A DNA stretch of 24,389 bases from a bacterium (lineage in GTDB: Bacteria > SM23-31 > JAUVVT01): contig JAUWXV010000027.1 of the NCBI GenBank assembly GCA_030616165.1, positions 1-24,389 of the forward strand. Direction: 5' to 3'. How positions within the stretch are numbered: the first letter of the stretch is position 1; every line of letters starts with the position of its first letter. The translations under genes were made by a program, and so were the position numbers. Of the stretch, positions 5,815-24,364 are shown one piece after another. Under the pieces are notes generated by a model. The model was not told the DNA's origin. It saw only the letters and a program-made list of their open reading frames with translations, and did no database searches.

Positions 5815-6414
5815 TTATATTTTATTTAATTCAAGAAGCCGCTGATACTTCGTTTTTTCCTGAATCTGGTATTGAACTTTTAACTCCTTGAAAAGAGCGT
5901 TCAATTTATTTCTTGCTTCTTTCTCATTTCCTGATTCAACTTCAATTTCATAATCTATAAACCCTTTTCCGAAGTTTGTCTTGTCTAGTTCAAATTTCAT
6001 ATCCTCATAATAGAAAGTCCTTCTTTCGGTTTCTGATTTACCAATTAAAATGAGTTTTGAATTACCAATTATATTTTCAATTATCTTTCCACATTCTGAA
6101 CCTAATATATCAAGTATATATTTTTCACCTGTAAGAATCTTTTGAAAAGTGCCTAAATTACAAATCTCCTCAATCTCTTCAGAAACAAAATAACCATCAT
6201 TGACATCTTTTTGTTTTTTAAATGTGATTAATACCTTCTCCTGTTCAATCCTTCCTCTCAAGATTGAATTGTTCATAAGAAGGAGCATATTTTCTGTGTC
6301 ATAATAATGATTTTCCTGAATCGAGACAGTAAATCTACTTTTCTTTTTAAGAGCGTCAAAAACATCTATATAATCATCTTCATTTAATATTTTGTATTTT
6401 AATTCTTTTTCCAT
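5815..6414 (-). CDS. CYTH-domain protein (CyaB/thiamine-triphosphatase-like)
   Basis: A single-domain 199-residue CYTH (triphosphate tunnel) protein. The signature ExExK is present as EKELK at residues 2-6. Further charged residues expected to line the tunnel are visible: LRGR with R53 and R55, K66 in TFKKQ, R131/R132 in SETERRTF, D144 in ELDKTNFG, and E156/E158 in DYEIEVE. HYYDT (36-40) matches the family's YFDT turn. Members hydrolyse inorganic triphosphate or thiamine triphosphate, or act as class IV adenylate cyclases, using divalent metal; the sequence alone does not tell which. There is no signal peptide, so it is probably cytoplasmic. It sits between the subtilase and mutL with gaps on both sides, so it may be a separate unit. 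The ATG is well placed because ExExK normally lies at the extreme N-terminus. Confidence 0.85.
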   Translation of the reverse strand: MEKELKYKILNEDDYIDVFDALKKKSRFTVSIQENHYYDTENMLLLMNNSILRGRIEQEKVLITFKKQKDVNDGYFVSEEIEEICNLGTFQKILTGEKYILDILGSECGKIIENIIGNSKLILIGKSETERRTFYYEDMKFELDKTNFGKGFIDYEIEVESGNEKEARNKLNALFKELKVQYQIQEKTKYQRLLELNKI

Positions 6415-6436
6415 CTTTGAATGATTATATTAATTC

Positions 6437-6462
6437 GGTCAGACAAGAATGTCTGACCTACC
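6437..6462 (-). repeat. REP-like palindrome, family 1 (copy 1)
   Basis: A perfect 9-bp stem, GGTCAGACA (6437-6445) with TGTCTGACC (6450-6458), around an AGAA loop. On the minus strand GTAG overlaps the hairpin foot (CTAC at 6458-6461 on the plus strand). It lies 22 nt upstream of the CYTH gene's ATG and 26 nt past the stop of the subtilase. No T-tract follows, so it is not a standard terminator. Related copies are at 10865, 11776 and 24340. Confidence 0.75.
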
Positions 6463-6484
6463 ATCTGCAAGTTTGTTTATTGTT

Positions 6485-9400
6485 TTATCTTATAATTGCC
6501 AGTTTTCCTTTAAAAGTAGTTCCGTTTCCCTCAACATAATAAAGATATACACCACTTGGAACTTTTTCACCGTTTTGGTTGTCGAGATACCAGTTAACCC
6601 CACCATCTCCATCGTTCTCTTCAAGAATTTTTATTAATCTGCCAGACATATTAGTAATCCATATCTCTGCCTTTTCTGTCAGATTTGCAAACGTTATATA
6701 TCCATTCCCGCTCAACGAGTTATAGGGATTAGGATAGCTAAATACTTCTGATAAATCACTTTTGCTTAATAAAAGCGATATAGTATTCCCTTTTCCATCA
6801 ACAATTTCTTTTCCTTCACTGCTCTTCAAATTATTAACAGTAATCAAATAACTTTTACCCAAAGCCCCCACCGGATACTTTGGATCAATCTTTAAAATAA
6901 TCTCATCCGGATTTTTTTCATCAAATATAATCTCTTTAATTTTTAACTCAGGCTCAAAAAGATAATTTTCTTTCATTAGTATGGTAATTTTATCCATAGG
7001 AATATTGAATTTTAGTATTATGGAATTATTACTTCCTGCTTCGATATTGGTTATATACGGAGATCCTGGTTCAATCGAAACATAAAAATCCAACAAAGTT
7101 GATGATGTATCAATTGGGGTAAAATCAATATCCTTTAATTCTTTTGAAACCGCGATTTTATAATATCCACTCCCAGAAAATTCCGGCACCAAAGTTAATA
7201 TCACCTCTCTCCCCGATTTGGAGTATGCAGCAGAAGAAACAGAAAAATTGCCGGGAGAAATTTTATATTTCGTCTCATCTATTACTTCCTTACTCATAGG
7301 TTCACTGAAGGTTATCTTTATTTTATCTTTAGGAATAAAATCCAAATTTTTAATAAAAGGTTTCTCATTAGGTTTTGCAGAAACTACAGCAGACTTAAGG
7401 CTCTCTTTTTGTTTAAACATACTATTAACCGCAGAAACAGAATACCAGTATATACTATCTCTTTTTAAATTTTCATCGTAATAATAATTTTCATTAACCG
7501 ATGTAACCTTGAAAAGTTCATCTTCATTAAAACCCCGATAAATATTGAAATAGTCGGCACTGCTTGAAGATTTCCAACTAAGATAAATTCTGTCGGTATC
7601 AACAGGCACGACAGTAAGATTAAATGGCGGTAATGGTCTTTCTGAAACGATATTATTTTCAAAAGATACTATTTTCTCACCATCGTTAAAAAACAACTCG
7701 TTAACTCCATTGCCATCGATATCGTCGATTATGAACCTGCTGCATCTGCTTTTTTCATAATGCCAGACAATCTGATAATCATTTCCGTTATAGTCAACAA
7801 TATACAAATCAGGATAGGCGGATATCACTATTTCCTTATTCTCATCATTATCGATGTCTCCCGAAAAGCAGCCGCTGTCGAATATACTCAAAGGATTATA
7901 CCCAAGTATATTCTTTTCCCAAACTTTGTAAAAATCATTATCTCCTTTCGATTTAAAAATTGCATACGACCAGTATCTCATTTTTGGGTCGCTTGATTCG
8001 CTCGGATAATCCTCCGAGTGACAGCCTGCAATAAATTCCTCCATACCATTGCCATCAAAATCACCAGCGGAGATAAAATCGACCGCATCTATCTGGTCCA
8101 ATCCATAACTCCATATATAATCAAAAGAACCAGTACCATTATATTCATATATATAAATATCACCGTCACTATCACCAAAAAGAATTTCACTTTTACCATC
8201 ACCATCAAAATCACCAATTTCACACCTTGGGATGCCTGCACCATTAGTGCCACCTGTAGGATTAGGAAACGTGAATCTTACCGAATAATTATTATCACCC
8301 GTATTTTCAAGTAAAACAAATTCATTTTCAATTCTTGCAATCATTTCCTTTTTTCCATCATTATCAATGTCACAAAATTTACTTGCCCATAATCCTTCTT
8401 CTGATTCCCAAACTATCCCGGATGGAAACAAATTTTCTTCTTCAGCCTCGATTATCACACTCTTTGCACCCATCCCCCCGAGTATTTCACCCTTACCATC
8501 CATATCAAAATCCCCTGCATCCCTTGGAATTATCCTGAAATCTGTAGTTACGATAGGTGTAAATGAACCATTCTCATATTCAAATATTCCAAGTGTTCCA
8601 AATGAAAATTTATTCTCATAAACATTAGCAACTATCTCTTTTTTGTTATCATTATTAAAATCAGTTGTGACAGGCAAAAGAAATGAAGATGGTAAATAGT
8701 ATCCCTCTTTTACCATTTCCCAACTTGAAAAAGGATAATCTTTATTTTCATAGATAAAATAGTCACCATTATTATCATACTTATTTTTCAATCCTTGTTC
8801 ATTTTCAACCTCAACATAAAATTCGATTGTTTTATCTATTTCTTCCCCCGGAATTACCATTTTGTGAAATTTAACAGCATACTCCGATTCCTTTATTCTA
8901 AAATTTTCATCTGAATCCTTCTTTCTATAAAATATCCTGCATCTCGTGGGTTGTTCCGTTTCAAATCTGATAAAAGGTGAGATTTTATCTTTATCAATTA
9001 TATCAGAATACAAAAAATTCTTGACTTCAGGATATGACCTAACAATTTTTACAATTACTCTGTCTTCGACTGAAGAGTTAGAATAGTTTTCAACAACGAG
9101 CCTTAAACAATATGTATCATCGGGTAGAGATTCGATATTCCAGTATCCAAGTGTATCTTCAACAACCTGACTTTTTATTTCTCTCTGAATTAGTTCCCAA
9201 TTTTCTGGATTTTTCCCAATACCATAATAGAATGAGTAATGCTTCATATCCAGACCTGCTGCAGTTCCCGTAATGTCAATTCTCTTTTCTTGCGGATATA
9301 TATTTGGCGTGTGCAGTTTAGCGACAGAAAATTTATTAACATTTAAAGCTTTCAACGCATTAACTCTTCCCGCGCCAAACCTGAAATCGCAGCCACCTTG

Positions 9401-10729
9401 CCCCAAATCATCAGCAGATAATAAAATTATAGAACGGACTTGCTCTGGAAAAAGATTTCCATTATGAGAAATGAGTAATGCAGCCAATCCGCTAACAAAA
9501 GATGCAGAAACAGATGTTCCACTTATAAATCCATAACTATTACCAATTTTCGTAGAATATATACTTGTACCCGGAGCGGTAACATCAACCGTATTTCCAA
9601 ATGATGAGAACTGAGCGAGACTGTCATCTTCATTTACTGCTCCCACTGAAATAGTCTCGTCAAATGTGGAAGGATAGGTTAATCTATCATCCCCGTTATT
9701 CCCACTGGATGTTACAACCACACATCCATTATTATAAGCAAATCTAATAACATCCCCCAATACTCTGGAGTATATTAAATCCCCAAAACTCATATTTATA
9801 ATACGAGCACCATTTTGAACAGCGTAAATCACTGCAGAAGCAATATCGTCATCCTGAAGAAATCCCTTTGATGTACCTGCACGAAGATTCATTATCCTGC
9901 ATCCCGGTGCAACCCCAGATATACCATCACTGCCCAAAGCAGCAACAATACCAGCAATTGATGTTCCATGCCCCATTTCGTCCATTGGGTTATTATCAGG
10001 CTCAAGATAATCACCATCGTCCGGATAAGAGGGAACATCAGTAAAATCCCATCCCTGTATATCATCAATAAATCCATTTCCATCATCATCAATTCCATTC
10101 AAATCAGACGAATCTGCAATACCATTTTTATTCAAATCCTCTCCCGGATTTATCCAGATATTCTCCTTTAGGTCTTTATGAAGATAGTCTATTCCAGTGT
10201 CAATTATTCCAACCAATACATCCCTTGAACCCTTTTCAATTTCCCACGCTTCGTAAACATTAATTCTTTCTAAACCCCATTGCTCGTTTGAATCCGCATT
10301 ATTTTTACTCTGATGGAGATGATAAAGATAATTTAACTGCGTATATTCTACTTCCGGTATAGAAGTATATTCTCTCAAAATATCATTAACATTAATAGAA
10401 TTCTCAAACCTGATTAAATATATTCCATCGACTAATTCAGAAAAGTTATTCTTTTTTAATGAAACACTTCTATTGTATGGAATCAAACTTTTTATTTTAA
10501 CTGCATTATATTTTTTATTAAGATTATCAACAGATACTATACCCATATAATTATCAAATAAATCTAATTGCGAAGAAATCTTTTTTAGATTTTCTGAAGA
10601 TAGAGATTTTAGCTTAATAATTATTTCATTTGGAGTATATTCTTGCGAGAAAATAATTTTGACAAAAAATATATCTAAAAGCAAAAATAATAAAAATATT
10701 TTTTTATTTTTAAATAATTTTCGATACAT
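6485..10729 (-). CDS. Secreted subtilisin-family (S8) protease with FG-GAP repeats and T9SS-like C-terminal sorting domain
   Basis: A 1414-residue exported serine protease. A signal peptide (about 1-29, ending IIFSQ) precedes an inhibitor-like propeptide (about 31-140). The S8 catalytic domain (about 150-465) has the full triad: D177 in GIIDTG, H254 in MGHGTS and S406 in SGTSVS, with the oxyanion asparagine N344 in SGNNG. An Asp/Asn/Gly-rich, probably calcium-binding insertion lies at about 196-230. Residues about 685-1020 contain seven FG-GAP/VCBS-type calcium-binding motifs such as DFDGDGKSEI and DIDNDGKKEM. A fibronectin type III domain (about 1033-1120) and two SbsA-like Ig domains (about 1123-1320) follow. 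The C-terminus (1327-1414) has SYPNPYN and PSGVYLYYVEG, typical of type IX/FlgD-like sorting domains. It is probably displayed or released outside the outer membrane. The substrate is unknown. The gene stands alone, with repeats on both sides. Confidence 0.92.
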   Translation of the reverse strand: MYRKLFKNKKIFLLFLLLDIFFVKIIFSQEYTPNEIIIKLKSLSSENLKKISSQLDLFDNYMGIVSVDNLNKKYNAVKIKSLIPYNRSVSLKKNNFSELVDGIYLIRFENSINVNDILREYTSIPEVEYTQLNYLYHLHQSKNNADSNEQWGLERINVYEAWEIEKGSRDVLVGIIDTGIDYLHKDLKENIWINPGEDLNKNGIADSSDLNGIDDDGNGFIDDIQGWDFTDVPSYPDDGDYLEPDNNPMDEMGHGTSIAGIVAALGSDGISGVAPGCRIMNLRAGTSKGFLQDDDIASAVIYAVQNGARIINMSFGDLIYSRVLGDVIRFAYNNGCVVVTSSGNNGDDRLTYPSTFDETISVGAVNEDDSLAQFSSFGNTVDVTAPGTSIYSTKIGNSYGFISGTSVSASFVSGLAALLISHNGNLFPEQVRSIILLSADDLGQGGCDFRFGAGRVNALKALNVNKFSVAKLHTPNIYPQEKRIDITGTAAGLDMKHYSFYYGIGKNPENWELIQREIKSQVVEDTLGYWNIESLPDDTYCLRLVVENYSNSSVEDRVIVKIVRSYPEVKNFLYSDIIDKDKISPFIRFETEQPTRCRIFYRKKDSDENFRIKESEYAVKFHKMVIPGEEIDKTIEFYVEVENEQGLKNKYDNNGDYFIYENKDYPFSSWEMVKEGYYLPSSFLLPVTTDFNNDNKKEIVANVYENKFSFGTLGIFEYENGSFTPIVTTDFRIIPRDAGDFDMDGKGEILGGMGAKSVIIEAEEENLFPSGIVWESEEGLWASKFCDIDNDGKKEMIARIENEFVLLENTGDNNYSVRFTFPNPTGGTNGAGIPRCEIGDFDGDGKSEILFGDSDGDIYIYEYNGTGSFDYIWSYGLDQIDAVDFISAGDFDGNGMEEFIAGCHSEDYPSESSDPKMRYWSYAIFKSKGDNDFYKVWEKNILGYNPLSIFDSGCFSGDIDNDENKEIVISAYPDLYIVDYNGNDYQIVWHYEKSRCSRFIIDDIDGNGVNELFFNDGEKIVSFENNIVSERPLPPFNLTVVPVDTDRIYLSWKSSSSADYFNIYRGFNEDELFKVTSVNENYYYDENLKRDSIYWYSVSAVNSMFKQKESLKSAVVSAKPNEKPFIKNLDFIPKDKIKITFSEPMSKEVIDETKYKISPGNFSVSSAAYSKSGREVILTLVPEFSGSGYYKIAVSKELKDIDFTPIDTSSTLLDFYVSIEPGSPYITNIEAGSNNSIILKFNIPMDKITILMKENYLFEPELKIKEIIFDEKNPDEIILKIDPKYPVGALGKSYLITVNNLKSSEGKEIVDGKGNTISLLLSKSDLSEVFSYPNPYNSLSGNGYITFANLTEKAEIWITNMSGRLIKILEENDGDGGVNWYLDNQNGEKVPSGVYLYYVEGNGTTFKGKLAIIR

Positions 10730-10864
10730 CTAAAAAGTAATACGATATTATAATTATATTAAATTATGAAACTTCAGGAATTTTTTTAATTTGCGACTTT
10801 TAATAAAAAATAAATGTTTGAAAATACATTCCAGTATGTTCTATCGTTTTTGTTGTTTATATTT

Positions 10865-10889
10865 GGATAGACAAGAATGTCTGTCCTAC
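10865..10889 (-). repeat. REP-like palindrome, family 1 (copy 2)
   Basis: The stem is GGATAGACA (10865-10873) with TGTCTGTCC (10878-10886) around AGAA, nine pairs including one G.T wobble. CTAC follows at 10886-10889, giving GTAG at the foot on the minus strand. It adjoins the GC-rich element at 10892-10955, together forming a composite repeat region between the nuclease-like gene and the subtilase. Confidence 0.7.
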
Positions 10890-10891
10890 TT

Positions 10892-10955
10892 ACTTCTATG
10901 AAAAAGAAAGGCTCCGCCATAGGCGGATCTGCCTCTGGCGGAAAAGAAACTTTAA
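10892..10955. repeat. Dispersed GC-rich double-hairpin repeat (family 3, long copy)
   Basis: Two tandem mini-hairpins: TCCGCC(ATA)GGCGGA at 10913-10927 and TCTGCC(TCT)GGCGGA at 10928-10942. They are flanked by A-rich GAAAAAGAAA on the left and GAAAAGAAACTTTA on the right. The same flanks and a single hairpin recur at 20008-20057. It lies 39 nt past the stop of the 195-residue gene and is far more GC-rich than its surroundings. There is no GTAG foot, so it is a different family from the neighbouring REP-like palindrome. Confidence 0.65.
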
Positions 10956-10994
10956 ACCTATTTCTTGCGAAACAAGTAATAATGGCAAGTTTAT

Positions 10995-11582
10995 TTACTT
11001 ACTTTTTTCAAGTCTTTCCTGAATAAAATCTTTGAACCATCTTACATCTTCTTCTTTTTCAGCACTTAATTTACACCAAATGCGTTCGTCTTGGAGTATT
11101 CTAATAGTAGGAAGAATATGCAACGAAACCGAAGAAAAATCCCTGAGAGTATCATACCAAGCCCTTTTTTCATCTCTATCAAATGGATCATTATCATGCC
11201 TATTTAATTTGACACAAAGATTAATCCATTTGATTTTATCAAATCCCAGTCTCAATGTTTCAGGATAATTTCTAAGCGTAATTTCACGAGGCTTTGTAAA
11301 ATGTTGAGATTCATCAACTTCAACTACAAATCCAGGATTTACAACATAGTAGTCCACATTCGGAAGTTTTTTTGCACGAACAAACTCTCTAAATCCTCTA
11401 TAATTTTGTAGTTCAGTGTAAATTGTTTTTAAAGCATTGTAAAAATCGTACCCTTTATATTCTTCTAACTTTGATGGTAAATTCAGATTATATCCTATTT
11501 CTACCTCACCGTAATTTTTTGTCAAAAGTTCAAAAATCTTTCTCTTACATTCCTTGTATCGTTCACTATGTTTTTTCGTCAT
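10995..11582 (-). CDS. Putative small nuclease-like protein (DUF559/Vsr-like motif), function unknown
   Basis: A 195-residue soluble protein with no signal peptide or membrane segment. I do not recognise the full-length family. The centre reads VDYYVVNPGFVVEVDESQHF (76-95), with D77, E88, D90 and QH at 93-94. This resembles the core of DUF559/Vsr-type endonuclease-fold proteins (DFYxPxxxLVIEVDGxQH), so a PD-(D/E)XK-like fold is a reasonable inference but not certain. The N-terminus is basic and helical. The C-terminal half has a Trp/Arg/Asp-rich stretch (DERIWCKLSAEKEEDVRWF) with no assignable role. It is a lone gene, with gaps of 265 and 238 nt holding repeats on each side and its own candidate promoter. 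That suggests an accessory or acquired gene rather than part of the neighbouring envelope genes. ATG start, with an AGG about 9 nt upstream. Confidence 0.7.
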   Translation of the reverse strand: MTKKHSERYKECKRKIFELLTKNYGEVEIGYNLNLPSKLEEYKGYDFYNALKTIYTELQNYRGFREFVRAKKLPNVDYYVVNPGFVVEVDESQHFTKPREITLRNYPETLRLGFDKIKWINLCVKLNRHDNDPFDRDEKRAWYDTLRDFSSVSLHILPTIRILQDERIWCKLSAEKEEDVRWFKDFIQERLEKSK

Positions 11583-11639
11583 ACTAATATACCTAAATCA
11601 CACAATTACATAATAATTTTCTTATAGTTTTGATATAAC

Positions 11640-11667
11640 ATTATACCAAACTGTACAAAAGTCTAAA
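11640..11667 (-). promoter_or_regulatory. Candidate sigma-70-type promoter for the nuclease-like gene
   Basis: Read on the minus strand there is a perfect -10 TATAAT (11645-11640), a 16-bp spacer and a -35-like TTTAGA (11667-11662; four of six matches to TTGACA). The predicted start would leave a leader of about 50 nt before the ATG at 11582. The region is AT-rich, so chance matches are possible. Confidence 0.35.
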
Positions 11668-11775
11668 GATCTAATTTATAACGCAACTTCTTTGTAACAA
11701 CCACAACTAATTTCTGAAAACCACCTTTTTTACACTTATTAATGTATTATCAATATAATAAGACAAATAATAATG

Positions 11776-11800
11776 GTAGGTCAGACATTCCTGTCTGACC
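11776..11800 (+). repeat. REP-like palindrome, family 1 (copy 3, inverted)
   Basis: A perfect 9-bp stem, GGTCAGACA (11779-11787) with TGTCTGACC (11792-11800), around TTCC. GTAG is on the plus strand at 11776-11779. This is the only family 1 copy in the opposite orientation. With the copy at 10865 it frames the 195-residue gene as inverted repeats whose GTAG feet face inward. It lies 20 nt past the glycosyltransferase stop. Confidence 0.75.
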
Positions 11801-11820
11801 ATATTAAAAATTTATTAAAG

Positions 11821-12729
11821 TTAATTTAAATTAACTGAATTTCCCTTACGTTTCGGTTTAAAAAGCAAGACGGCTATTCTAATAAATGCTGTTGTAAAAA
11901 GTATGATTCCAGATAAAATGTTTAATATTCTATGCCACCATTTTTTGTAATATTTTTGAAGATATAAGAAAAAAGCAATATGAGAATGAAGAATCATTGA
12001 GTATCTTTTCTGCATTACGCTGTGTCCGACCAAATGATATATCTTTATTTCGGGATTAAAAACTACCTTGTATCCATTTTCTTTAAATCTTCTGCACCAG
12101 TCAACATCATTAAAAAACATAGTAAATCTTTCATCCATAAATCCAATTTCGTTTATAACCTTTTTTCTTCCCATCAGACATGAAGCCATAGGCTGGTCAA
12201 CTTCCATTTTTGATTTATGGTCAAAGTATCCCATTCTCCACCTGCCAAATATTTTACTCCTTTTGAATAAAATACTCAACCCTGTTATCTCCCATAGAAG
12301 TGTCAAATGGTCAGGAAACTCCCTGCAGGATGGAATTATCTTATTTTCCATTGATAGATGCTGCGGGGCAACCAGACCGATATCACGACTTTCATTAAAA
12401 AAATCGATTATTCTATTAAAAAATCCATCGGTTATAAATACATCTGGATTAATAAGCAAAATAAAATCTCCAGATGCAATTCTTAATCCCTGATTTACTC
12501 CTCCTGCATAACCAATATTTTTTGAATTTTCTATTATTCTAAAGGTAGGGCTTTTCTGGCTGATAGGAAAAAAATTTTTAACTACCGTCAAGGTTTCATC
12601 TTCAGAATTATTATCTATAAGGATTAATTCAACATTGAAGGAAACAATATTATTTTTAATGCAGGAAAGACATTTTTTTATAACACCAGCACTGTTAAAA
12701 GTAACAATTATTATTGAAATATCAACCAT
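11821..12729 (-). CDS. Family 2 glycosyltransferase (WbbL/rhamnosyltransferase-like)
   Basis: A GT-A fold glycosyltransferase of 302 residues that transfers a sugar from a nucleotide donor, probably to a lipid-linked or LPS/exopolysaccharide acceptor. Visible motifs: the N-terminal strand DISIIIVTFNS (3-13), LIDNNSEDET (37-46), NIGYAGGVNQG (71-81), the DxD-equivalent NPDV (94-97), NDVDWCRR (207-214, equivalent to the ED-W catalytic region) and HLVGHS (232-237). A hydrophobic segment at about 268-290 followed by a basic tail (KPKRKG) would anchor it to the inner face of the cytoplasmic membrane. The arrangement resembles WbbL-type rhamnosyltransferases, but donor and acceptor cannot be read from sequence. 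It starts 76 nt past the aminopeptidase stop and could belong to the end of that operon. It also fits the LPS theme set by rfaE1/rfaE2 and lptE. Confidence 0.88.
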   Translation of the reverse strand: MVDISIIIVTFNSAGVIKKCLSCIKNNIVSFNVELILIDNNSEDETLTVVKNFFPISQKSPTFRIIENSKNIGYAGGVNQGLRIASGDFILLINPDVFITDGFFNRIIDFFNESRDIGLVAPQHLSMENKIIPSCREFPDHLTLLWEITGLSILFKRSKIFGRWRMGYFDHKSKMEVDQPMASCLMGRKKVINEIGFMDERFTMFFNDVDWCRRFKENGYKVVFNPEIKIYHLVGHSVMQKRYSMILHSHIAFFLYLQKYYKKWWHRILNILSGIILFTTAFIRIAVLLFKPKRKGNSVNLN

Positions 12730-12805
12730 TAACGGTATATATTATAAGTCATCTTAATTAATTTTATAAATCGGTGAGAAAATTCTTTATCATAAATCCC
12801 AAATT

Positions 12806-13870
12806 TCAAACACATATTAATTCTTTTGGAGATTTAGTGAGAACTGTGCAACCATTTGGTTGCACTACTACATCGTCCTCAATCCTGACTCCACCATAAT
12901 TGGGGATATAAATACCAGGTTCTATAGTGATAACATTCCGTGAAATAAGCGTTTCATGATTAAGTTGAGATATTTTTGGCGTTTCATGAATTTCAAGTCC
13001 CAATCCATGTCCTAAAGAATGACCGAAATACTGACCGAATCCCTTTTCGGCTATAAAATTTCTTGCCACAGAATCAAGTTCACTGCAATTCATTCCCTCT
13101 CTTACAGATTTTACTGCATTCTTCTGCGCTTCAAGAACTGTGGAATATATTTCATATTCTTTTTTATTCGGTTTCCCGAGAAATACAGTCCTTGTCATAT
13201 CAGAATGATAACCATTATATACACAACCAAAGTCTAAAAGAACAAACTCTCCCAATTTTAATTTATTTTTATCTGGTTTCCCATGAGGGAGTGCAGATTT
13301 GGAACCAGTTAAGACTATCGAGTCAAAGGCGTCCTTCTCTCCACCATATTTCTTTATTTTATATGATATTTCAGCAGATATTTCAATCTCTTCGATTCCT
13401 GATTTTAGCATGGGAATAATTTCATTGAAAATCTTATCACCAATCTTGGATGCTTTCTTTATATTTTCAATCTCTTCATCATCTTTTACACTTACCATCT
13501 TATCAATCAAATCATTAACTGGAATAAGGCATTCCGATGGAATAAACGCCAATAACTCCTGATAATCAAAAAAATTAATTCTTTTTGCCTCAAATCCTGC
13601 TTTTCTGCCCTTTAGTAAATTTTTCTCTTTCAATTCATCAAACAAATATTCATTTGAGATTAAAACATCAAAATCACGCACCTCCTCTTTTACCTGCTCC
13701 TGATACCTGAAATCAGTAATAAAATATCTTTCATCCTCAGCAATCATGCACAAACCGTTACTACCAGTAAATCCAGATAGATACCTCACACTTCGTGCAT
13801 TTGAAACGATAAAACAATCAATTCCCAAACTATCAAACTGTGCAATTAATTTATCAATCCTTTTTTTCAT
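12806..13870 (-). CDS. pepP: M24-family Xaa-Pro aminopeptidase
   Basis: A cytoplasmic dinuclear-metal exopeptidase that removes an N-terminal residue ahead of proline. It has an N-terminal creatinase-like domain (about 1-128) and a pita-bread catalytic domain. The five metal ligands are visible: D213 in LLDFGC, D224 in HSDMTR, H288 in LGHGLG, E317 in IEPGIY and E331 in VRIEDD. PHGKP supplies the substrate-binding histidine. The length of about 354 residues matches the short PepQ/YpdF-like M24 proteins. I chose the ATG at 13868-13870; a TTG two codons upstream is also in frame. The gene overlaps the end of the TPR gene by 17 nt, implying translational coupling. The narrower symbol (pepP versus pepQ) is uncertain. 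Confidence 0.9.
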   Translation of the reverse strand: MKKRIDKLIAQFDSLGIDCFIVSNARSVRYLSGFTGSNGLCMIAEDERYFITDFRYQEQVKEEVRDFDVLISNEYLFDELKEKNLLKGRKAGFEAKRINFFDYQELLAFIPSECLIPVNDLIDKMVSVKDDEEIENIKKASKIGDKIFNEIIPMLKSGIEEIEISAEISYKIKKYGGEKDAFDSIVLTGSKSALPHGKPDKNKLKLGEFVLLDFGCVYNGYHSDMTRTVFLGKPNKKEYEIYSTVLEAQKNAVKSVREGMNCSELDSVARNFIAEKGFGQYFGHSLGHGLGLEIHETPKISQLNHETLISRNVITIEPGIYIPNYGGVRIEDDVVVQPNGCTVLTKSPKELICV

Positions 13871-16226: not shown

Positions 16227-16274
16227 AATTTTAAATAAAAAAAATTTATACTGCTTTTTAAATCCAGAAAAGAT

Positions 16275-16763
16275 TTACCATCCCGAGATTACCAAATTTA
16301 ATACATCGGTAGAAATCTTATCCACCGCTTCATCAATACCCTCATCTCTTTGTGAAGGGTCAGAATAAGTTCCTCTTCCCCTTAAATTCTTTTTAAAAAT
16401 GATTTTTTTAGACTTCCTATCCTGGTATTCCAATTTAAGATAAACATACAATTCAAATGCTTGAGCGGTTTCATCCGCTCTGAGAGAAACAGGGTTATCT
16501 TCCACTCTTTCAATCGTGCCTTTTAATATTGAATCCGCCTCTTCTGGAGATACGACTTTCAGGTTGTTATCTATAATAAATTTCTCTATAACTGAACTTG
16601 TGATCTTTTCTCTTATCTGAAATTCAGATGAAACATCATCAAAAACAGGTATGGCAATTGACCTAATCCCGGGATTCATCGACCCAGAAAACGAATAATA
16701 CGAACAATAAATAAACAATATAAAAATAGAAACCGCTATCAAACCAAATATTTTAGACTTCAT
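16275..16763 (-). CDS. lptE: LptE-like LPS-assembly lipoprotein
   Basis: LptE plugs the LptD barrel and helps insert LPS into the outer membrane. This 162-residue protein has an N-terminal hydrophobic segment (about 5-19) ending at C20, followed by SYYSFSGS and then GIRSIAIPVFDDVSSE, which is how LptE homologues of the Bacteroidota and relatives look to me. ADSILKGTIERVEDNPVS further fits the LptE beta-sheet core. The lipobox (FIYC) is poor, because a Tyr precedes the Cys where Gly/Ala/Ser is usual, so lipidation is likely but not certain. The start codon overlaps the stop of the sigma-54 activator gene (ATGA, 4 nt), so the two are translationally coupled. The family assignment rests on sequence pattern and context; lptD is not in the window. 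Confidence 0.75.
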   Translation of the reverse strand: MKSKIFGLIAVSIFILFIYCSYYSFSGSMNPGIRSIAIPVFDDVSSEFQIREKITSSVIEKFIIDNNLKVVSPEEADSILKGTIERVEDNPVSLRADETAQAFELYVYLKLEYQDRKSKKIIFKKNLRGRGTYSDPSQRDEGIDEAVDKISTDVLNLVISGW

Positions 16764-17932
16764 CTGATTTTTTCAAAAAATTGTAAATTTAACTCTTTAA
16801 GTTTTCTGTATAAAGTCCGCTCGCTTATTCCAAGTTCTTTTGCAGCCTTTTTTCTGTTACCTTTATACTTTAATAGTGCCTTTTTTATCAATTCTTTCTC
16901 GTTATTTTTTATAGAAATCTCTCCATATTCATTGTCCTCTTTAAAAGGGATTTCTTCTTCAAAAACATGTTCTCCGAATCTGGATTTTTCATCTGGGATA
17001 TATCTTTGTTCTCCTCTATAATTTTCAATTATTATCCTTTTGATTTCTGATAATTCCGCCCCTAATGCAAGAAGTGTCCTGTAAATAAGTTCCCTTTCAG
17101 CCTGTTCAGCAGTAATCTTCAGAGGAACAGGCAGTGACCTATCAAACTCTGTCTGGTCTTTTATATTTTCTGGCAGGTCAGAAACTTTTATTACTTCACC
17201 TTTATTTAATACTACAAGACTTTCGAGTAAATTTTTAAGTTCTCTGACATTCCCAGGCCAGGAATACTCTTTAAGAAGATGCATAGATTCAGGTGAAATC
17301 CCCTTATATTGGATATTCATCTTTCTACAATATTCCTCTAAAAAGGCATTGGTAAGCATTTCAATATCTTCTGTTCTTTCCCTTAATGGCGGTATATATA
17401 TTGTTACAGCTTTTAGGCGATAATACAAGTCCTTTCTGAATTCTCCCTTATTAACAGCGGTTTCAAGGTCTTTGTTTGTGGATGCAATAATCCTTGTATC
17501 AACATTAACTGCTGCAGTTCCTCCAACCCTCAGAAACTCGCGTTCTTCAAGTACTCGGAGCAATTTAACCTGTGTATATAGACTCATTTCACCGATTTCA
17601 TCAAGAAAAATCGTTCCCTCATCAGCAATCTCAAAGTATCCCTTTCTCTTACTAACCGCACCAGTAAATGCTCCTTTTTCATGGCCAAAAAGTTCACTCT
17701 CAAGAATACCTTCTGGAATGGCACCACAGTTAACGGAAATCATCGGGCCATTCTTACGATTGCTTCTCTGGTGGATTTCTTTTGCTACTATCTCTTTTCC
17801 AGTTCCGCTCTCTCCTACTATTAATATCGATATATCAGTAGGTGCTACCTGTTCTATTATCTTTTTTACTTCAAGGATTCTATCAGATTCCCCAGTTATA
17901 TCCCATTTATTATTTTCTTTAATATTTCCCAT
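16760..17932 (-). CDS. Sigma-54-dependent transcriptional activator lacking a receiver domain
   Basis: A bacterial enhancer-binding protein of 390 residues that hydrolyses ATP to open sigma-54 promoters. The AAA+ domain begins almost at the N-terminus: Walker A GESGTGKE (40-47), the sigma-54-contacting GAFTGA loop (87-92), Walker B TIFLDEIGE (107-115), the FRKDLYYRL region with candidate arginine fingers (165-173), and WPGNVREL (225-232). A linker (about 265-345) contains AERELIYRTLLALGAELSEI (278-297), resembling half of the Fis-type region. The C-terminal HTH follows at about 355-385 (NRKKAAKELGISERTLYRKL). There is no response-regulator, GAF or PAS domain, so activity is not controlled by phosphorylation of this protein; control may be by a partner or by expression level, as in PspF. 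ATGA coupling to lptE suggests a role in envelope homeostasis. I found no convincing -24/-12 promoter in the flanking gaps. Confidence 0.92.
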   Translation of the reverse strand: MGNIKENNKWDITGESDRILEVKKIIEQVAPTDISILIVGESGTGKEIVAKEIHQRSNRKNGPMISVNCGAIPEGILESELFGHEKGAFTGAVSKRKGYFEIADEGTIFLDEIGEMSLYTQVKLLRVLEEREFLRVGGTAAVNVDTRIIASTNKDLETAVNKGEFRKDLYYRLKAVTIYIPPLRERTEDIEMLTNAFLEEYCRKMNIQYKGISPESMHLLKEYSWPGNVRELKNLLESLVVLNKGEVIKVSDLPENIKDQTEFDRSLPVPLKITAEQAERELIYRTLLALGAELSEIKRIIIENYRGEQRYIPDEKSRFGEHVFEEEIPFKEDNEYGEISIKNNEKELIKKALLKYKGNRKKAAKELGISERTLYRKLKELNLQFFEKIR

Positions 17933-17993
17933 TTACCAAATTTATTTATTTCACAATAAAAGTTAAGCAATAACAATTTTAAATACATTAATA

Positions 17994-19973
17994 TTATATC
18001 ATTTCTTTAATTCTTTTTATTTCATCTCTGATTTTTGCTGCTTTTTCAAATTCAAGTTGTTTTGCTGCCAGTCCCATCTCTTTTTCAAGATGTTCAATAA
18101 TATCTTCTCTCTCCATTTTTGTTCTATAATCTGTCCCGCCTTTTTCTCTTAGGAATTTTTCCGGAATCTCATCCGCAACTGAGGTCGTCATTAATACCTC
18201 ATCAATTGACTTATATATAGACCTGGGTTCGATCCCCATCTTTTTGTTATACTCTTGCTGAATTTTCCTTCTTCTCTTGCACTCTTCAATAGTTTTTTTC
18301 ATAGAATTTGTTATTTTATCAGCATAGAATATCACCATACCCGCTTTGTTTCTTGCTGCTCTCCCGGCAATCTGCATAAGAGACTTATCAGACCTCAAGA
18401 ATCCTTCTTTATCCGCATCAAGTATCGCTACCAGCGATACCTCCGGTAAATCAAGACCCTCCCTCAGTAAATTTATACCCACAAGAACATCAAACTCTTT
18501 CAGCCTCAGATTTCTCAATATTTCTACTCTGTCCAGCACTGCTATCTCAGAATGAAGATACCTTACTTTTATATCAAGACCAGAAAGGTATTCGGTTAAA
18601 TCTTCAGCCATTCTCTTTGTAAGGGTGGTGACAAGCACCCTTTCATTTTTGCTAACACATTTTCTGATTTCATCAATCAAATCATCAATTTGCCCTTTTA
18701 CCGGTCGGACCATAATTTTTGGGTCAACAAGTCCTGTAGGACGAATAATCTGCTCAACAATCACTCCTTTTGACTTTTCAAGTTCATACTCGGCAGGAGT
18801 GGCTGAAACAAAAGTTACCTGGTTAATCATTGATTCAAACTCATCGTACTTTACTGGTCGATTGTCAAGTGCAGAAGGAAGCCTGAATCCATGTTCAACA
18901 AGAACTTCTTTTCTTGAACGGTCACCATTGTACATCCCATGTACCTGCGGAACCGTAACATGCGACTCATCTATGAACATTAAATAATCCTCAGGGAAAA
19001 AGTCAATAAGTGTATATGGTCTCTGACCAGGAAGTCTCCCCGATAAATATCGCGAATAATTCTCTATACCTGTACAATAACCTATCTCCTGCATCATCTC
19101 AATATCATAGTTTGTTCTCGTCTCAAGACGCTGTGCCTCAAGAAATTTTTGTTCACTCCTGAAATATTCAAGCCTCTCTTTTAATTCTTTTTTTATCTCA
19201 ACAATTGCTCCTTCTAATTTTGAATACGGTGTAACAAAGTGCTTGGCAGGGAAAATAACTATCATCTCCTTTTCTTCGATTATCTGTCCAGTCAATGGGT
19301 CTATAATGCATATTCTTTCAATCTCATCTCCGAACATCTCCACTCTCACCCCCTTTTCCTCATAAGCAGGAAAAATCTCAATTACATCTCCCCTTACACG
19401 AAATACACCCCTATAAAAATCTATATTGTTCCTAACATAATGTATATCAATAAGTTTCACAAGTATTTTTTGCCTGTCAATGACTTCGCCCTTTTTTAAG
19501 ATTAGAATCATATCAATATAATCCTGCGGAGAACCTAACCCGTAAATGCAAGATACCGAAGCAACGATAATAACATCACGCCTCGAAAGCAGTGAACTCG
19601 TCGCCTTAAGACGAAGACGGTCTATTTCATCATTTATTGAAGTATCCTTCTCAATATATAAATCAGTTTCCGGAATATATGCTTCAGGCTGATAGTAATC
19701 GTAATAACTGACGAAATATTCAACAGCATTATTAGGAAAAAGCCCCTTAAACTCACCATATAACTGAGCGGCAAGTGTCTTGTTATGTGAAATCACCAGA
19801 GTCGGTTTCTGAGTATTCTGAATAACATGTGCCATCGTAAAAGTCTTCCCCGAACCTGTTACACCTAAAAGGGTCTGAAACTTATCCCCTCTTTCTGCAC
19901 CTTCCGTTAACTCACATATCGCCTTCGGCTGGTCACCACAAGGCTTGTATTTTGATTCTAATTTGAATCCCAT
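17994..19973 (-). CDS. uvrB: Excinuclease ABC subunit B
   Basis: UvrB is the damage-verifying helicase-like subunit of nucleotide excision repair, loaded by UvrA and then recruiting UvrC. The 659-residue length is standard. Seen: Walker A GVTGSGKT (37-44), the aromatic beta-hairpin [12 protein letters not shown] (89-100) that inserts between DNA strands, Walker B-like FIDESH, helicase motifs including [20 protein letters not shown] and QIAGRAARN, and the C-terminal UVR domain (about 625-657, [22 protein letters not shown]) that binds UvrC. The ATG at 19971-19973 gives the normal N-terminus. The leader upstream contains a dispersed GC-rich hairpin (20008-20057), and the 122-nt gap from the PHP gene suggests its own promoter, although none is clear. 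The gap to the sigma-54 gene downstream is 61 nt. Confidence 0.98.
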
Positions 19974-20007
19974 TATATATAATATCTTTTACTTCCTCTT
20001 GAATACC

Positions 20008-20057
20008 ACTTTCTTTGAAAAGAAAACGGGCTCCGCCTATAGCGGAAAAGAAACTTT
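20008..20057. repeat. Dispersed GC-rich hairpin repeat (family 3, short copy)
   Basis: A single hairpin, TCCGC (20032-20036) with GCGGA (20042-20046), around CTATA. It is flanked by GAAAAGAAAACGGGC on the left and GAAAAGAAACTTTA on the right. The left and right flanks match those of the element at 10892-10955, which has two hairpins instead of one. It lies 38 nt past the PHP gene stop and within the uvrB leader. Confidence 0.65.
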
Positions 20058-20095
20058 ATGCTTATAATTTAAATAATTTTTTAAATTAAAACAAG

Positions 20096-21298
20096 TTATT
20101 GTGATAAATTTTTTGAAACAAAAATAGGATTTGAGATAATCCAGGGCCTTTCTATTTTTTTGAAAAATGGTAATTTTTTTCTTATTTGAAAGACTTCAAC
20201 CCAGTATGCTCCCGGCTTAGATGTTGTATATTCCAGTTTGTAATAATCAGAAAAATAAACAATTTCATCGTTATTATATAACTTTATAATGATATTGGTC
20301 GTATCTGGAACGAAAACAGTAAATTTAACTTTTCCTTTTATATCATCACCAATATGAGCAATCTTATAATCATTTTCCCCTTTAAAAATAAATCCACCGG
20401 GTCGTGAAAAATTCCCAATCTCTGTGTAGCATCTCCCTTTTTTCAAGCAGTCAAATACGATAATTTTGTCTCTATCTGCAGCACCTGACAATTTTTCTTC
20501 TGTTAATATATGTGTCTTAGCAAATCTTAAAGTCTGCTCATAACTCGGGAATTTTATTGAAAAATTTGCAGATATCTTAATATTTGCATGCGCATCTGCT
20601 GAACCAATTTGGAATATTTTTCTTCCTTTAATAAGTTCAGACCATTTTTCGATATTTTTTTCAGGACGGTCAACTAATTTATTCAGTGGATTTTTATATA
20701 AAAATGAACCTAAAACTGTCTCAAAAATCTCAAAAAGGGTATCGTCTCTCCACTGGGAATCCCCATTGAATATTTCCACTGCATCGAATCCATCGTAATT
20801 CCAATTTTTTATTGGTGTTTTTGGATGAAATGGATGACACATTTCAGAATAATATTCGGTTGATTTATTGTTTTTTAGTTGATACAGTGAATTTTTTACA
20901 TCATATAATCTAAAATCTGGTGAAGGGCTATAAACAAGATAATGTCCAATCTCTGATGAAATTTCAATTCCTACCAAAACCAAAACATTATTGTAATATC
21001 CCTCTTTGTTATCAATCAAAGCTCCAAGAGTATCATGGTCAGAAATAATTAAAAAGTCGATTCCAAGTTGATTTGCAACTTTTGCTATTTCTTCGGGAGT
21101 TCCACTGCCATCTGAATATTTTGTATGAATGTGAATCAATCCTGTATAGTCGTATAACTCGCTATCACGAACCGCTATATCCGGAGGGATATACCTATCA
21201 CTATATAAATCGAAAAATATATAAAAGAACAATACAACTACACAAGATGAAAATATTATTATTAGCCTTCTAATTAAATTATTTCTCAATAAAATCAC
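20096..21298 (-). CDS. Membrane-anchored PHP-domain metal-dependent phosphoesterase-like protein
   Basis: A 400-residue protein with a basic N-terminus and one transmembrane segment (about 11-30), so the catalytic part is probably in the periplasm. A PHP domain follows with its metal ligands visible: HIHTKYSDG (H56, H58, D63), SDHDT (86-90), E112 in GIEIS, H119, CHPFHP (H155, H158) and GSADAHAN (D235, H237). PHP domains carry out metal-dependent phosphoester hydrolysis; the substrate here is unknown. The last about 110 residues (from about 290) form a beta-rich region with no recognised motif. Translation starts at GTG (21296-21298), overlapping the rfaE2 TAG by one base. The rfaE1-rfaE2-PHP overlap chain implies a link to heptose/LPS metabolism, but periplasmic placement argues against it replacing cytoplasmic GmhB. 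Confidence 0.88.
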   Translation of the reverse strand: MILLRNNLIRRLIIIFSSCVVVLFFYIFFDLYSDRYIPPDIAVRDSELYDYTGLIHIHTKYSDGSGTPEEIAKVANQLGIDFLIISDHDTLGALIDNKEGYYNNVLVLVGIEISSEIGHYLVYSPSPDFRLYDVKNSLYQLKNNKSTEYYSEMCHPFHPKTPIKNWNYDGFDAVEIFNGDSQWRDDTLFEIFETVLGSFLYKNPLNKLVDRPEKNIEKWSELIKGRKIFQIGSADAHANIKISANFSIKFPSYEQTLRFAKTHILTEEKLSGAADRDKIIVFDCLKKGRCYTEIGNFSRPGGFIFKGENDYKIAHIGDDIKGKVKFTVFVPDTTNIIIKLYNNDEIVYFSDYYKLEYTTSKPGAYWVEVFQIRKKLPFFKKIERPWIISNPIFVSKNLSQ

Positions 21299-21777
21299 TA
21301 TTTACAATATGACTTAATAATTTTTTCGATAATTTCTTTTGTTGACTTACCCTCTACCAAAGGTATAGTGACAACTTCACCACCAACACTATAGACACTT
21401 TCTCTTCCAACTACTTCATTAATCTTATAATCACCTCCCTTTACTAATATATCAGGTTTTAATTTATTAATAATCTCAGCAGGAGTTTCCTCATCAAACA
21501 AACACACAGCATCAACACATTTTAGAGAAACGAGTATGTAAGCGCGATCGTTTTCATCCAAAATAGGTCTTTTCTCCCCTTTAATCTTCTTCATTGAAGA
21601 ATCACTGTTCAGTGCAACTATCAAAAAACCTCCCAAACTTTTTGCCTTTTCTAAAAGTTCCACATGACCGCGGTGGAGAATATCAAAACATCCATTCGTG
21701 AATACGACCTTTCTCCCCTCAATTTTTGCTTTCTCCCTGAATTTAACAAGTTCATCAATTTTGAAAATCTTCCCCAT
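21298..21777 (-). CDS. rfaE2: D-glycero-beta-D-manno-heptose 1-phosphate adenylyltransferase
   Basis: Transfers AMP from ATP to heptose 1-phosphate, making ADP-heptose for the LPS inner core. The 159-residue protein is a stand-alone version of the C-terminal half of HldE: nucleotidyltransferase motif TNGCFDILHRGHVELL (27-42) with HxGH at 35-38, NSDSS (57-61), LVKGGDY (110-116) and the GKSTKEII motif near the end (equivalent to ISSTK). The ATG overlaps the rfaE1 stop by one base (TAATG), and the PHP gene overlaps its own stop in the same way, so the three are coupled. Splitting of HldE into two genes is common outside the Proteobacteria. A glycerol-3-phosphate cytidylyltransferase-like role is a less likely alternative given the neighbour. 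Confidence 0.93.
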   Translation of the reverse strand: MGKIFKIDELVKFREKAKIEGRKVVFTNGCFDILHRGHVELLEKAKSLGGFLIVALNSDSSMKKIKGEKRPILDENDRAYILVSLKCVDAVCLFDEETPAEIINKLKPDILVKGGDYKINEVVGRESVYSVGGEVVTIPLVEGKSTKEIIEKIIKSYCK

Positions 21778-22766
21778 TATTCCTCTACAAAAGCCTTTTC
21801 AAGTTGTTCAATTTTAATTGGGACAACACCAACCTCTCCACACACCACACCAGCAGCATAATTAGCAATAGTCGCTGCCTCTTCCACATCCCCCCCAGCA
21901 ACCATCACCGCGGTCAAGGTAGCAATTACAGTATCACCAGCACCCGAAACATCGTGTATCTCTTTTGCACGTGCACCAACATTTATAACTTCACCCGAAT
22001 CTTTGAAAAGTGTCATCCCCTTTTCACCGCGTGTTATCAGGACATTTCTACATTCGAGCCTATTTAATAACTCTTTGCCCGCATACAAGAGTTTATCATC
22101 ATCGGTAAATCGAATGCCAAGTTTTGACTCGATTTCACGCAGGTTGGGTTTGAACACGGTAGCCTTTTTACATTCAAAAAAATTGTCGAACTTCGGGTCG
22201 ATAGTTACAGGAATATCATTGGAATTTGCAAGGGAAATTGTCCTGTGAATTATCTCTTTCTTTAAAAGTCCTTTATTATAATCTTCAATGATAATTCCAT
22301 CAAATTCTTTAATCTTCTCCTCAATAATATTGATTATCTTTTTTTCAATTTTTTCGTTAATCTCCTGTCGAGATTCCCTGTCGGTTCTCACTACATGCTG
22401 ATTATCAGCGATAATCCTGGTCTTAATAGTAGTTGGTCTTGATGGGTCAACAATAATTCCGCTTGAATCAAATCGACCCGATTCAAGCAGTTCAATCAGA
22501 AGAGTGCCTGTATTATCATCCCCAATCACCCCAATAAGAAAAGTTTCCCCCCCGAGATATTTAATATTATTTCCAACATTTGCCGCACCTCCAAGCTGGG
22601 AGAATTCTCGTTCTATATCTACAACAGGGACAGGTGCCTCTGGAGATATACGCGAAACTATTCCCCAAAAATAGCGATCAACCATCAAATCGCCAATAAC
22701 TGCTATCTTTTTACCTTTAATGTTAGAAATTAAAGAATTAAACCTTTTTACTGATATATTTCTCAT
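21777..22766 (-). CDS. rfaE1: D-glycero-beta-D-manno-heptose-7-phosphate kinase
   Basis: A PfkB/ribokinase-family kinase that phosphorylates heptose 7-phosphate at C1, the step before GmhB dephosphorylation and RfaE2 adenylylation. The 329 residues correspond to the N-terminal half of HldE. Motifs: IAVIGDLMVDRYFWG (21-35), SPEAPVPVV (41-49), GGAANVGNN (59-67) and the anion-hole/catalytic DVSGAGDT (272-279, base D278). The start is the ATG at 22764-22766; a GGTAAAGAG stretch lies directly before it. A REP-like hairpin sits 17-37 nt upstream, between this gene and rtcB. No gmhA or gmhB is in the window. Confidence 0.95.
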   Translation of the reverse strand: MRNISVKRFNSLISNIKGKKIAVIGDLMVDRYFWGIVSRISPEAPVPVVDIEREFSQLGGAANVGNNIKYLGGETFLIGVIGDDNTGTLLIELLESGRFDSSGIIVDPSRPTTIKTRIIADNQHVVRTDRESRQEINEKIEKKIINIIEEKIKEFDGIIIEDYNKGLLKKEIIHRTISLANSNDIPVTIDPKFDNFFECKKATVFKPNLREIESKLGIRFTDDDKLLYAGKELLNRLECRNVLITRGEKGMTLFKDSGEVINVGARAKEIHDVSGAGDTVIATLTAVMVAGGDVEEAATIANYAAGVVCGEVGVVPIKIEQLEKAFVEE

Positions 22767-22782
22767 CTCTTTACCACTTTCC

Positions 22783-22807
22783 GGGCAACCCGCCGGGTCG
22801 CCCCTAC
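22783..22807 (-). repeat. REP-like palindrome, family 2
   Basis: A GC-rich stem: GGGC (22783-22786) with GCCC (22800-22803) and ACCC (22888-style arm at 22788-22791) with GGGT (22795-22798), separated by one A/C mismatch, with a 3-nt GCC loop. CTAC follows at 22804-22807, so GTAG stands at the foot on the minus strand, as in family 1, although the stem sequence is unrelated. It lies 33 nt past the rtcB stop. The base composition is very different from the AT-rich surroundings. Confidence 0.7.
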
Positions 22808-22836
22808 ATGTTTTTTTTCAAAAACGGATATATTTT

Positions 22837-24285
22837 TTATCCCTTTATTACTCCAATAGGTATTAGTTTCGCAATTTTTTCAGAAAGTCCAGCATTATGT
22901 ACCACCTCTACAACATCTTCTACATTTTTATAAGCCTCAGGGCATTCTTCTTTCAAAGTGTCCCTGCCTCTGCTCATTACAAAAATGCCTTTATCTTCAA
23001 GTTCACGATTTATCGCTCTGCCCTTTGCACTTTTGATAGCCTTTCTTCTGCTCATCAGCCTACCTGCTCCATGACATGTCGAACCGAATGAATATTCCAT
23101 TGCCTTATCCTTTCCCACAAGCAGAAATGAACTTCTTCCCATATCACCAGGAATTATCACCGGCTGACCGATTTCATAATATTTTTCTGGAAGCACAGGA
23201 TTATGGGAAGGGAATGAACGAGTTGCACCCTTTCTATGAACACAGAGCCGAACCTTCTTTCCATCTACATTATGTTCCTCAACTTTTGCAGTATTATGAG
23301 TAACATCGTAAACCAGATGCATCCCCATACTTTCGGCACTCTTTCCGAGTACCTTCTCAAAACTCCCCCTGACCCAGTGCAAAATACATTGTCGGTTAGC
23401 ATAAGCATAATTTGCTGCTGCTTTCATTGCCGAAAAGTATTGTTTTCCCTCTGGAGAATTAAGTGGAGCACAAGCAAGCTGTCTATCGGGGAGTTCAATC
23501 CTATACTTTGATACAGCACGTCCCATCTTTTCAAGATAATCATCACAAACCTGATGCCCAAATCCCCTCGAACCACAATGAATCATCATACAAATCTGCC
23601 CCTTAAAAATCCCGAGTTTTTCTGCCTTTTCCTGATTAAATATAGCATCAACGATCTGTATCTCAAGAAAGTGATTACCTGAGCCGAGAGTTCCAAGTTG
23701 GTCGCGCCCTCTGTCTAATGCCCTATTGCTAACCGCAGAGGGATCAGCACCTTCTAATCTCCCGTTGTCCTCAGTAAAATCTGCATCATCTGCCCATCCA
23801 TAGCCATTCTTTACTGCCCACTGAGACCCCTTTATTAATACATTCTTTTCGTCCTCCCTTGATAATTTTATCCTTCCTCTTGAACCAACGCCGCACGGAA
23901 TCTCCTGAAAAATCACAGAAATAAGTTTTTTTACATAGTCCTTTACATCCGAATGAACCAGGTCTGTCCTTACCAGCCTCACACCGCAGTTTATATCAGA
24001 ACCAACACCACCCGGAGAAATAATCCCGCTATCAATATCCGTGGCTATTACTCCCCCAATTGGAAGACCATACCCCCAGTGAATGTCGGGCATTGCCATT
24101 GAATATTTCACTATTCCCGGCAGAGTCGCAGCATTCTTCACCTGAATCGGGGCTTCATCCGAGAATATTTGCTTTAGCATATTTTCACTGGAAAATATCA
24201 AACCAGGGACTCGCATCTTCCCCGTCTTTGGTATCATCCATCTGTAATCGTCTATTTTCTCTAAATTTTTATACAACTCTATCAT
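22837..24285 (-). CDS. rtcB: RNA-splicing/repair ligase RtcB
   Basis: A GTP- and Mn-dependent ligase that joins RNA ends with 2',3'-cyclic or 3'-phosphate to 5'-OH; used for tRNA splicing in archaea and RNA repair in bacteria. The 482-residue length is normal for the long form. Metal-ligand motifs are visible: D97 and C100 in GVGSDINCG, H205 in SGNHFLE, H236 in IHCGSRGFGH, and H330 in THNTAK. HRKGATRSF (350-358) and GSTCHGAGRLMSRR (401-414) are intact; His405 is the position expected to be guanylylated. No archease gene is adjacent. The ATG at 24283-24285 is preceded by GGATAATAAA, a reasonable ribosome-binding site. A REP-like palindrome lies 54 nt upstream, and another 33 nt after the stop. 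Confidence 0.97.
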   Translation of the reverse strand: MIELYKNLEKIDDYRWMIPKTGKMRVPGLIFSSENMLKQIFSDEAPIQVKNAATLPGIVKYSMAMPDIHWGYGLPIGGVIATDIDSGIISPGGVGSDINCGVRLVRTDLVHSDVKDYVKKLISVIFQEIPCGVGSRGRIKLSREDEKNVLIKGSQWAVKNGYGWADDADFTEDNGRLEGADPSAVSNRALDRGRDQLGTLGSGNHFLEIQIVDAIFNQEKAEKLGIFKGQICMMIHCGSRGFGHQVCDDYLEKMGRAVSKYRIELPDRQLACAPLNSPEGKQYFSAMKAAANYAYANRQCILHWVRGSFEKVLGKSAESMGMHLVYDVTHNTAKVEEHNVDGKKVRLCVHRKGATRSFPSHNPVLPEKYYEIGQPVIIPGDMGRSSFLLVGKDKAMEYSFGSTCHGAGRLMSRRKAIKSAKGRAINRELEDKGIFVMSRGRDTLKEECPEAYKNVEDVVEVVHNAGLSEKIAKLIPIGVIKG

Positions 24286-24339
24286 TTTATTATCCGTTTT
24301 AATTTTTATTGCTGATTAAACTTTTTTATATTTACACCA

Positions 24340-24364
24340 GGACAGACAGGAATGTCTGTCCTAC
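24340..24364 (-). repeat. REP-like palindrome, family 1 (copy 4)
   Basis: A perfect 9-bp stem, GGACAGACA (24340-24348) with TGTCTGTCC (24353-24361), around GGAA. CTAC at 24361-24364 gives GTAG at the foot on the minus strand. Compared with the copies at 6437 and 11776, the third pair is A-T instead of T-A, a compensatory change. It lies upstream of rtcB, presumably past the end of a gene outside the window. Confidence 0.75.

Follow-up and report, generated by a model that had tools for sequence, protein, structure and literature searches.

The survey by Di Nocera et al. 2013 (PMC3733652) divides the GTAG-tagged REP superfamily into 24 families and reports that most genomes have few or no head-to-tail dimers. 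That survey and PMC6006769 already document GTAG REPs, REPtrons specific to a family or missing from a host, intragenic REPs and the horizontal spread of RAYTs, and features of the loop or stem have been shown experimentally to matter, along with GTAG, for RAYT activity (PMC8266576). The palindromes that we describe here, from a 24,389-nt stretch of bacterial DNA (the window, meaning the whole stretch analysed), share with the families as described in PMC3733652 the GTAG foot, a short stem with a loop, an intergenic location, compensatory stem variants, the link to RAYTs and the presence of several families in one genome. However, the window family differs from them in that its neighbouring copies are mostly head-to-tail and that the same 25-mer occurs across many phyla. 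Judged against the descriptions of the 24 families, it probably represents a new family within a known class of element. Similarly, as in the REPtron and TnpA_REP literature (PMC6006769, PMC8266576, PMC2817692), a Y1 HUH transposase gene lies between GTAG hairpins of its own, patchy taxonomy is ascribed to horizontal transfer, and REPtrons are missing in some hosts. On the other hand, the partner clade identified here has an RRxLPHW start, and RAYTs in frame in R-M genes are undescribed in the accessible parts of that literature, in which the survey dropped unexpectedly long fusion proteins. Palindromes in frame in protein genes are also known from the Rickettsia RPE and the other intragenic REPs, as reviewed in PMC3733652; whereas those insertions consist of the palindrome only, here an entire RAYT gene has been inserted, sometimes with flanking REPs. 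The inserts occur in other genomes, for the most part in genes for DNA modification or restriction, the copies of the window family being almost all extragenic. Pieces of the 25-mer looked up in the literature gave unrelated matches only.

We consider it very probable that the window palindromes belong to the GTAG superfamily of REPs and serve as substrates of a specific RAYT clade, the partner having been lost or left unassembled here. Their REP identity is supported by the copy number, the GTAG motif, the asymmetric foot, the stem covariation, the intergenic sites and a hairpin-bracketed RAYT clade elsewhere; counting against this reading are the lack of a partner RAYT in the host assembly and the excess of head-to-tail over inverted pairs. 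Read directly from the sequence, the four REPs of the window are 25 nt long, with a GTAG foot, a 9-bp stem and a TTCY loop, and together with an unrelated GTAG hairpin they were found where the first-pass annotation had placed them, all five in gaps separating called genes (Table 1). The G.T wobble that it had described in the second copy is a T.G pair on the + strand, but a C.A mismatch on the GTAG-bearing strand, so that its wording does not hold for the latter.

Table 1. Positions of the GTAG hairpins in the window, of head-to-tail arrays in the host genome, and of partner-type RAYTs and RAYT fusions in other genomes
Feature	Position or locus	Strand	Genome or lineage	Sequence	Context or remark
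REP copy, T-A subtype	6437..6461	-	window	GTAGGTCAGACATTCTTGTCTGACC	short gap, CYTH-domain gene / subtilase gene
REP copy, A-T subtype, one C.A mismatch	10865..10889	-	window	GTAGGACAGACATTCTTGTCTATCC	5' of subtilase gene
REP copy, T-A subtype	11776..11800	+	window	GTAGGTCAGACATTCCTGTCTGACC	ORF 10995-11582 on one side, glycosyltransferase gene on the other
REP copy, A-T subtype	24340..24364	-	window	GTAGGACAGACATTCCTGTCTGTCC	5' of rtcB gene
GTAG hairpin, unrelated stem, second family	22783..22807	-	window	GTAGGGGCGACCCGGCGGGTTGCCC; arms GTAGGGGCGACCC-GGC-GGGTTGCCC	pfkB-like / rtcB gap
GTAG-footed hairpin	12868	-	window	GTAGTGCAACC-AAAT-GGTTGCAC	within M24 peptidase gene; probably chance
Head-to-tail REP array	C192:15455-15595		host (G000)
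Head-to-tail REP array	C77:4566-4674		host (G000)
Head-to-tail REP array	C182:4615-4815		host (G000)
Hairpin-flanked partner RAYT	L144		Ignavibacteria
Hairpin-flanked partner RAYTs	L145, L148		Zixibacteria
Hairpin-flanked partner RAYTs	L146, L149		Pyrinomonadaceae
Hairpin-flanked partner RAYTs	L147, L173		Acidobacteriia
Hairpin-flanked partner RAYT	L151		B46_G16
Hairpin-flanked partner RAYT	L152		G004, same class as host		in-frame stop
Hairpin-flanked partner RAYT	L153		Ktedonobacteria		GGAG foot
Top-scoring RAYT without hairpin	L150		Calditrichaeota
RAYT fusion	L304:3083-7000		G160		Eco57I-type (Pfam)
RAYT fusion	L305:1363-3813		G059		Eco57I-type (Pfam)
RAYT fusion	L317:2509-4038		G005		Eco57I-type (Pfam); without clear YxxxNP
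RAYT fusion	L310:2350-7293		G066		type ISP (Pfam); in-frame hairpin copies inside
RAYT fusion	L307:3986-7501		G188		HsdR (Pfam)
RAYT fusion	L306:4288-8001		G258		DUF1156-type or related methylase (Pfam)
RAYT fusion	L314:3346-7029		G258		DUF1156-type or related methylase (Pfam)
RAYT fusion	L308:206-4402		G053		DUF1156-type or related methylase (Pfam)
RAYT fusion	L309:3370-7218		G382		DUF1156-type or related methylase (Pfam)
RAYT fusion	L316:98-1999		G003		methylase (weak N6_N4_Mtase match and alignment); frame cut by contig end
RAYT fusion	L315:3220-6276		G021		SNF2-type helicase gene (Pfam)

The host assembly comprises 3.74 Mb in 343 contigs and is 90% complete. Scanning it with the pattern GTAGGNCAGACATTCYTGTCTGNCC at up to 3 mismatches returned 148 matches genome-wide, and none for the reversed-pattern control, so the selfish-looking REP family proposed from the window alone has many further copies. 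To leave the foot out of the search, we used only the 16-nt core with up to 2 mismatches and recovered 134 copies in 1.16 Mb of host contigs, partly picked for carrying hits; GTAG precedes 99 of the 134, followed by GTAA (10) and GCAG (5), and GTAG is thus kept when many copies are aligned, as the first-pass annotation had expected. The side opposite the foot has no conserved motif in the aligned copies of this sample, and conservation ends abruptly at the edges of the 25-mer, with 0.65-1.1 bits in the foot columns and mostly less than 0.35 in the flanks. Since information is near background beyond the 25-mer, the repeat unit is the hairpin with its foot, not a piece of a longer repeat. Some copies are identical, for instance 17 of GTAGGACAGACATTCTTGTCTGTCC, which is compatible with recent spread without proving it.

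The claim that the stem is preserved although both arms changed is borne out by pairing covariation. Among 73 distinct sequences, stem pair 5/22 is A-T in 38 and T-A in 17, and these 55 Watson-Crick pairs compare with 33.8 expected by shuffling, none of 20000 shuffles being as high; the A-T/T-A swap is compensatory. Pairing at 4/23 also lies above the shuffles (91 of 20000 as high), while in the same test pair 3/24, which contains the last foot base, pairs no more often than the shuffles. In the copies of the host genome, A.C mismatches on the GTAG strand outnumber G.T at pairs 5/22 (15 vs 3) and 9/18 (20 vs 2), which places the wobble on the opposite strand, an excess owed partly to a subfamily, e.g. 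GTAGGACAGACATTCCTGCYTGCCY.

With genes called by simple ORF length on contigs enriched for hits, only 6 of the 134 copies overlap an ORF, against a sample that is ~79% coding, and in five of these six the copy sits where the ORF begins, at its 5' end; relative to the genes, 54 copies stand in the same orientation and 41 in the opposite one. Where neighbours are present on both sides, the flanking genes are co-directional for 84 copies, convergent for 8 and divergent for 5, gaps between divergent genes being under-represented (p 0.003). Neighbouring copies within 200 bp are arranged head-to-tail in 31 cases, head-to-head (HH) in 10 and tail-to-tail (TT) in 6, and 58 copies are singletons. Head-to-tail arrays with a period of 28-29 or 44 bp (Table 1) contrast with the inverted pairs that are usual for REPs.

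The window family is not the only one with this foot. In the 1.16 Mb sample, a search for perfect hairpins found GTAG at the stem edge in 95 of 778, the next most frequent foot reaching 28, and the GTAG-footed hairpins fall into several families that differ in stem and loop. The hairpin at 22783 is, as had been proposed, a separate stem family with the same foot: its pattern has 39 raw matches genome-wide, which include single palindromes read on both strands, and none in the control. The suggestion of more than one RAYT was likewise sound, as the host genome has 7 Pfam Y1_Tnp matches and up to 14 RAYT-like profile hits, several with GTAG families of their own. The RAYT gene of contig C182 is flanked by tandem copies of GTAGCCGAGCCTG-TCCC-CAGGCTCGG, another hairpin than that of the window, and other resident RAYTs by GTAG hairpins with GTAGGGGCG or TTTA loops. 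At none of the 7 resident RAYT loci examined does the window hairpin adjoin the gene, the nearest copy lying ~1.1 kb off.

In an exact search of named genomes, the matches listed for the same 25-mer include records labelled Zixibacteria, Planctomycetota, Acidobacteriota, Chloroflexi, Ktedonobacteria, Latescibacteria, Ignavibacteria, Bacteroidetes, Spirochaetia and Calditrichaeota; a MAG binning error is possible for any single one of them. A RAYT starting with RRxLPHW adjoins some of the copies in other genomes. We built a partner profile, A1, from three RAYT genes found beside the hairpin and ran it on 31 genomes. The hairpin lies within ~210 bp of 10 of the 11 top-scoring genes (at least 142 bits), often on both sides, versus none of 26 lower-scoring RAYT loci, which count the C182 gene twice (Fisher 3e-8); the profile and this flank test are partly dependent on each other, the former having been seeded from hairpin-adjacent genes. 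The partner clade carries the signature RRxLPHW...DHVH...YxxxNP, with HVH invariant in 10 of 10 aligned sequences and the catalytic Tyr nearly so, the exceptions being L152, which stops before the Tyr, and L145, which has YxxxNS. In a tree of 69 RAYTs the hairpin-bearing ones cluster in one well supported superclade, outside which lie those host-genome RAYTs that the tree includes. The hairpin label changes 5 times on this tree, against 13.8 under shuffling, and none of 500 shuffles gave so few changes. Across 386 genomes the hairpin and a partner-like RAYT co-occur (6/9 vs 18/377, p 2e-6), and a CATTCYTG core is largely kept across RAYT lineages while the stem varies. Some genomes (G218, G307 and G003) have 15-23 hairpin copies without a strong partner RAYT, which weighs against this pairing. 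A sister RAYT, L279 in G376, has ~10 flanking copies of a related hairpin, GTAGGACAGGCTTTCCAGCCTGTCC. Virus-borne spread was discarded, the exact pattern being absent from 2.9 million viral contigs.

A RAYT flanked by the same hairpins, which the first-pass annotation had suggested looking for, exists in other phyla (L144-L149, L151-L153, L173) but not in the host's own assembly, where no partner-clade RAYT was found at 90% completeness and the best match, the C182 gene, scores 80 bits. Genomes of the same class have from a few to 23 hairpin copies, and one of them, G004, retains a broken partner-clade RAYT with a flanking hairpin (L152). The simplest reading is that the REPs spread first and that the partner gene was then lost, or is missing from the assembled contigs. 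An active or recent REP system is not demonstrated by these results, as the partner-clade gene is absent from the assembly and the resident RAYTs examined lack the window hairpin.

Alternatively, a resident RAYT outside the partner clade could have mobilised the hairpins in trans, the family expanding without a partner RAYT. Although all of the up to 14 resident RAYT-like hits lie outside the partner clade, and their hairpins have the GTAG foot in common with that of the window, the hairpins beside those resident RAYTs that were inspected have other stems and loops, and published work finds loop or stem features recognised besides GTAG (PMC8266576); we regard this alternative as unlikely. Dispersed sites of a chromosomal DNA-binding protein, maintained by host selection, would also appear as a conserved palindrome with many copies outside genes, but such sites fit poorly with an asymmetric foot, with stem swaps that are compensatory instead of a fixed sequence, with tandem arrays at 28-29 bp, and with a patchy distribution across phyla that includes positions beside RAYT genes, making this explanation very improbable. 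Intergenic stem-loops, mostly between co-directional genes, might further be intrinsic transcription terminators or another class of RNA hairpin. However, the flank columns are near background, with no U-tract, a terminator scan of 6380-12000 listed none of the three REP copies there, and Rfam gave no family match in the window, on which grounds the terminator and Rfam readings were rejected; as the copies also stand in both orientations relative to genes, we give them almost no credence.

Under the preferred reading, that of REPs served by a specific RAYT clade, the 25-nt units with their GTAG foot, 9-bp stem and TTCY loop would be non-autonomous substrates of a single-strand HUH transposase of the RAYT/TnpA_REP type. 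The putative partner is the RRxLPHW...DHVH...YxxxNP clade, which in other phyla resides in a REPtron with this hairpin on its flanks. It would have moved the copies as single-stranded DNA by GTAG-guided cleavage and rejoining, the family expanding to ~150 mostly intergenic copies in the host lineage, and would afterwards have been lost, or lie within the unassembled 10%; other GTAG families of the host have RAYTs of their own. The cross-phylum spread probably has a horizontal origin, and the family is probably now inactive in this host.

In other genomes, 11 RAYTs of this superclade, recovered with the partner profiles, are embedded in long frames that run on beyond the RAYT, 10 of them in R-M or methylase genes by Pfam; since the set was chosen by long frame, it is uninformative on the frequency of out-of-frame gene breakage. 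The L304 insert, absent from a Lactococcus plasmid methylase, is bracketed by window-type hairpins, all readable in frame, and in L307 ~347 residues separate the flanking matches, versus ~68 in EcoR124 HsdR. G258 has two DUF1156 genes with the RAYT at different sites, so that each is the other's empty site. Uninterrupted relatives confirm, at the level of sequence comparison, that RAYTs were inserted into R-M genes. As the L305 frame ends within the methylase domain, its host gene may be broken. By contrast, none of 19 ORFs near free-standing RAYTs gave a match to an R-M family. Three further candidates were left uncounted: L313 (G103) and L319 (G376) look like GC-rich chance frames, and L324 (G414) has no Pfam domain besides Y1_Tnp. 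Searches extended to the G258 and G053 phyla comprised 5 genomes and 1 genome, respectively, and added little. RAYTs inside R-M genes are not described in the open-access full-text literature that we searched, most subscription papers being unsearchable. We tentatively raise the possibility, which we hold to be somewhat doubtful, that RAYT-REP units of this superclade enter recurrently in frame into R-M or methylase loops that tolerate 200-300 residues, with R-M genes, which move between phyla, serving as a vehicle of spread and excision as a two-form switch. Under this R-M reading, host gene and RAYT would be read as one protein.

The host documents a genome with ~150 REP copies whose partner gene is absent from the assembly, and one REP sequence tied to one transposase clade across phyla offers natural pairs for tests of RAYT-REP recognition. 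The recurrence of in-frame RAYTs in R-M genes provides a testable route for horizontal spread and, if the R-M reading is true, precise excision of the RAYT insert could toggle the enzyme between two forms.
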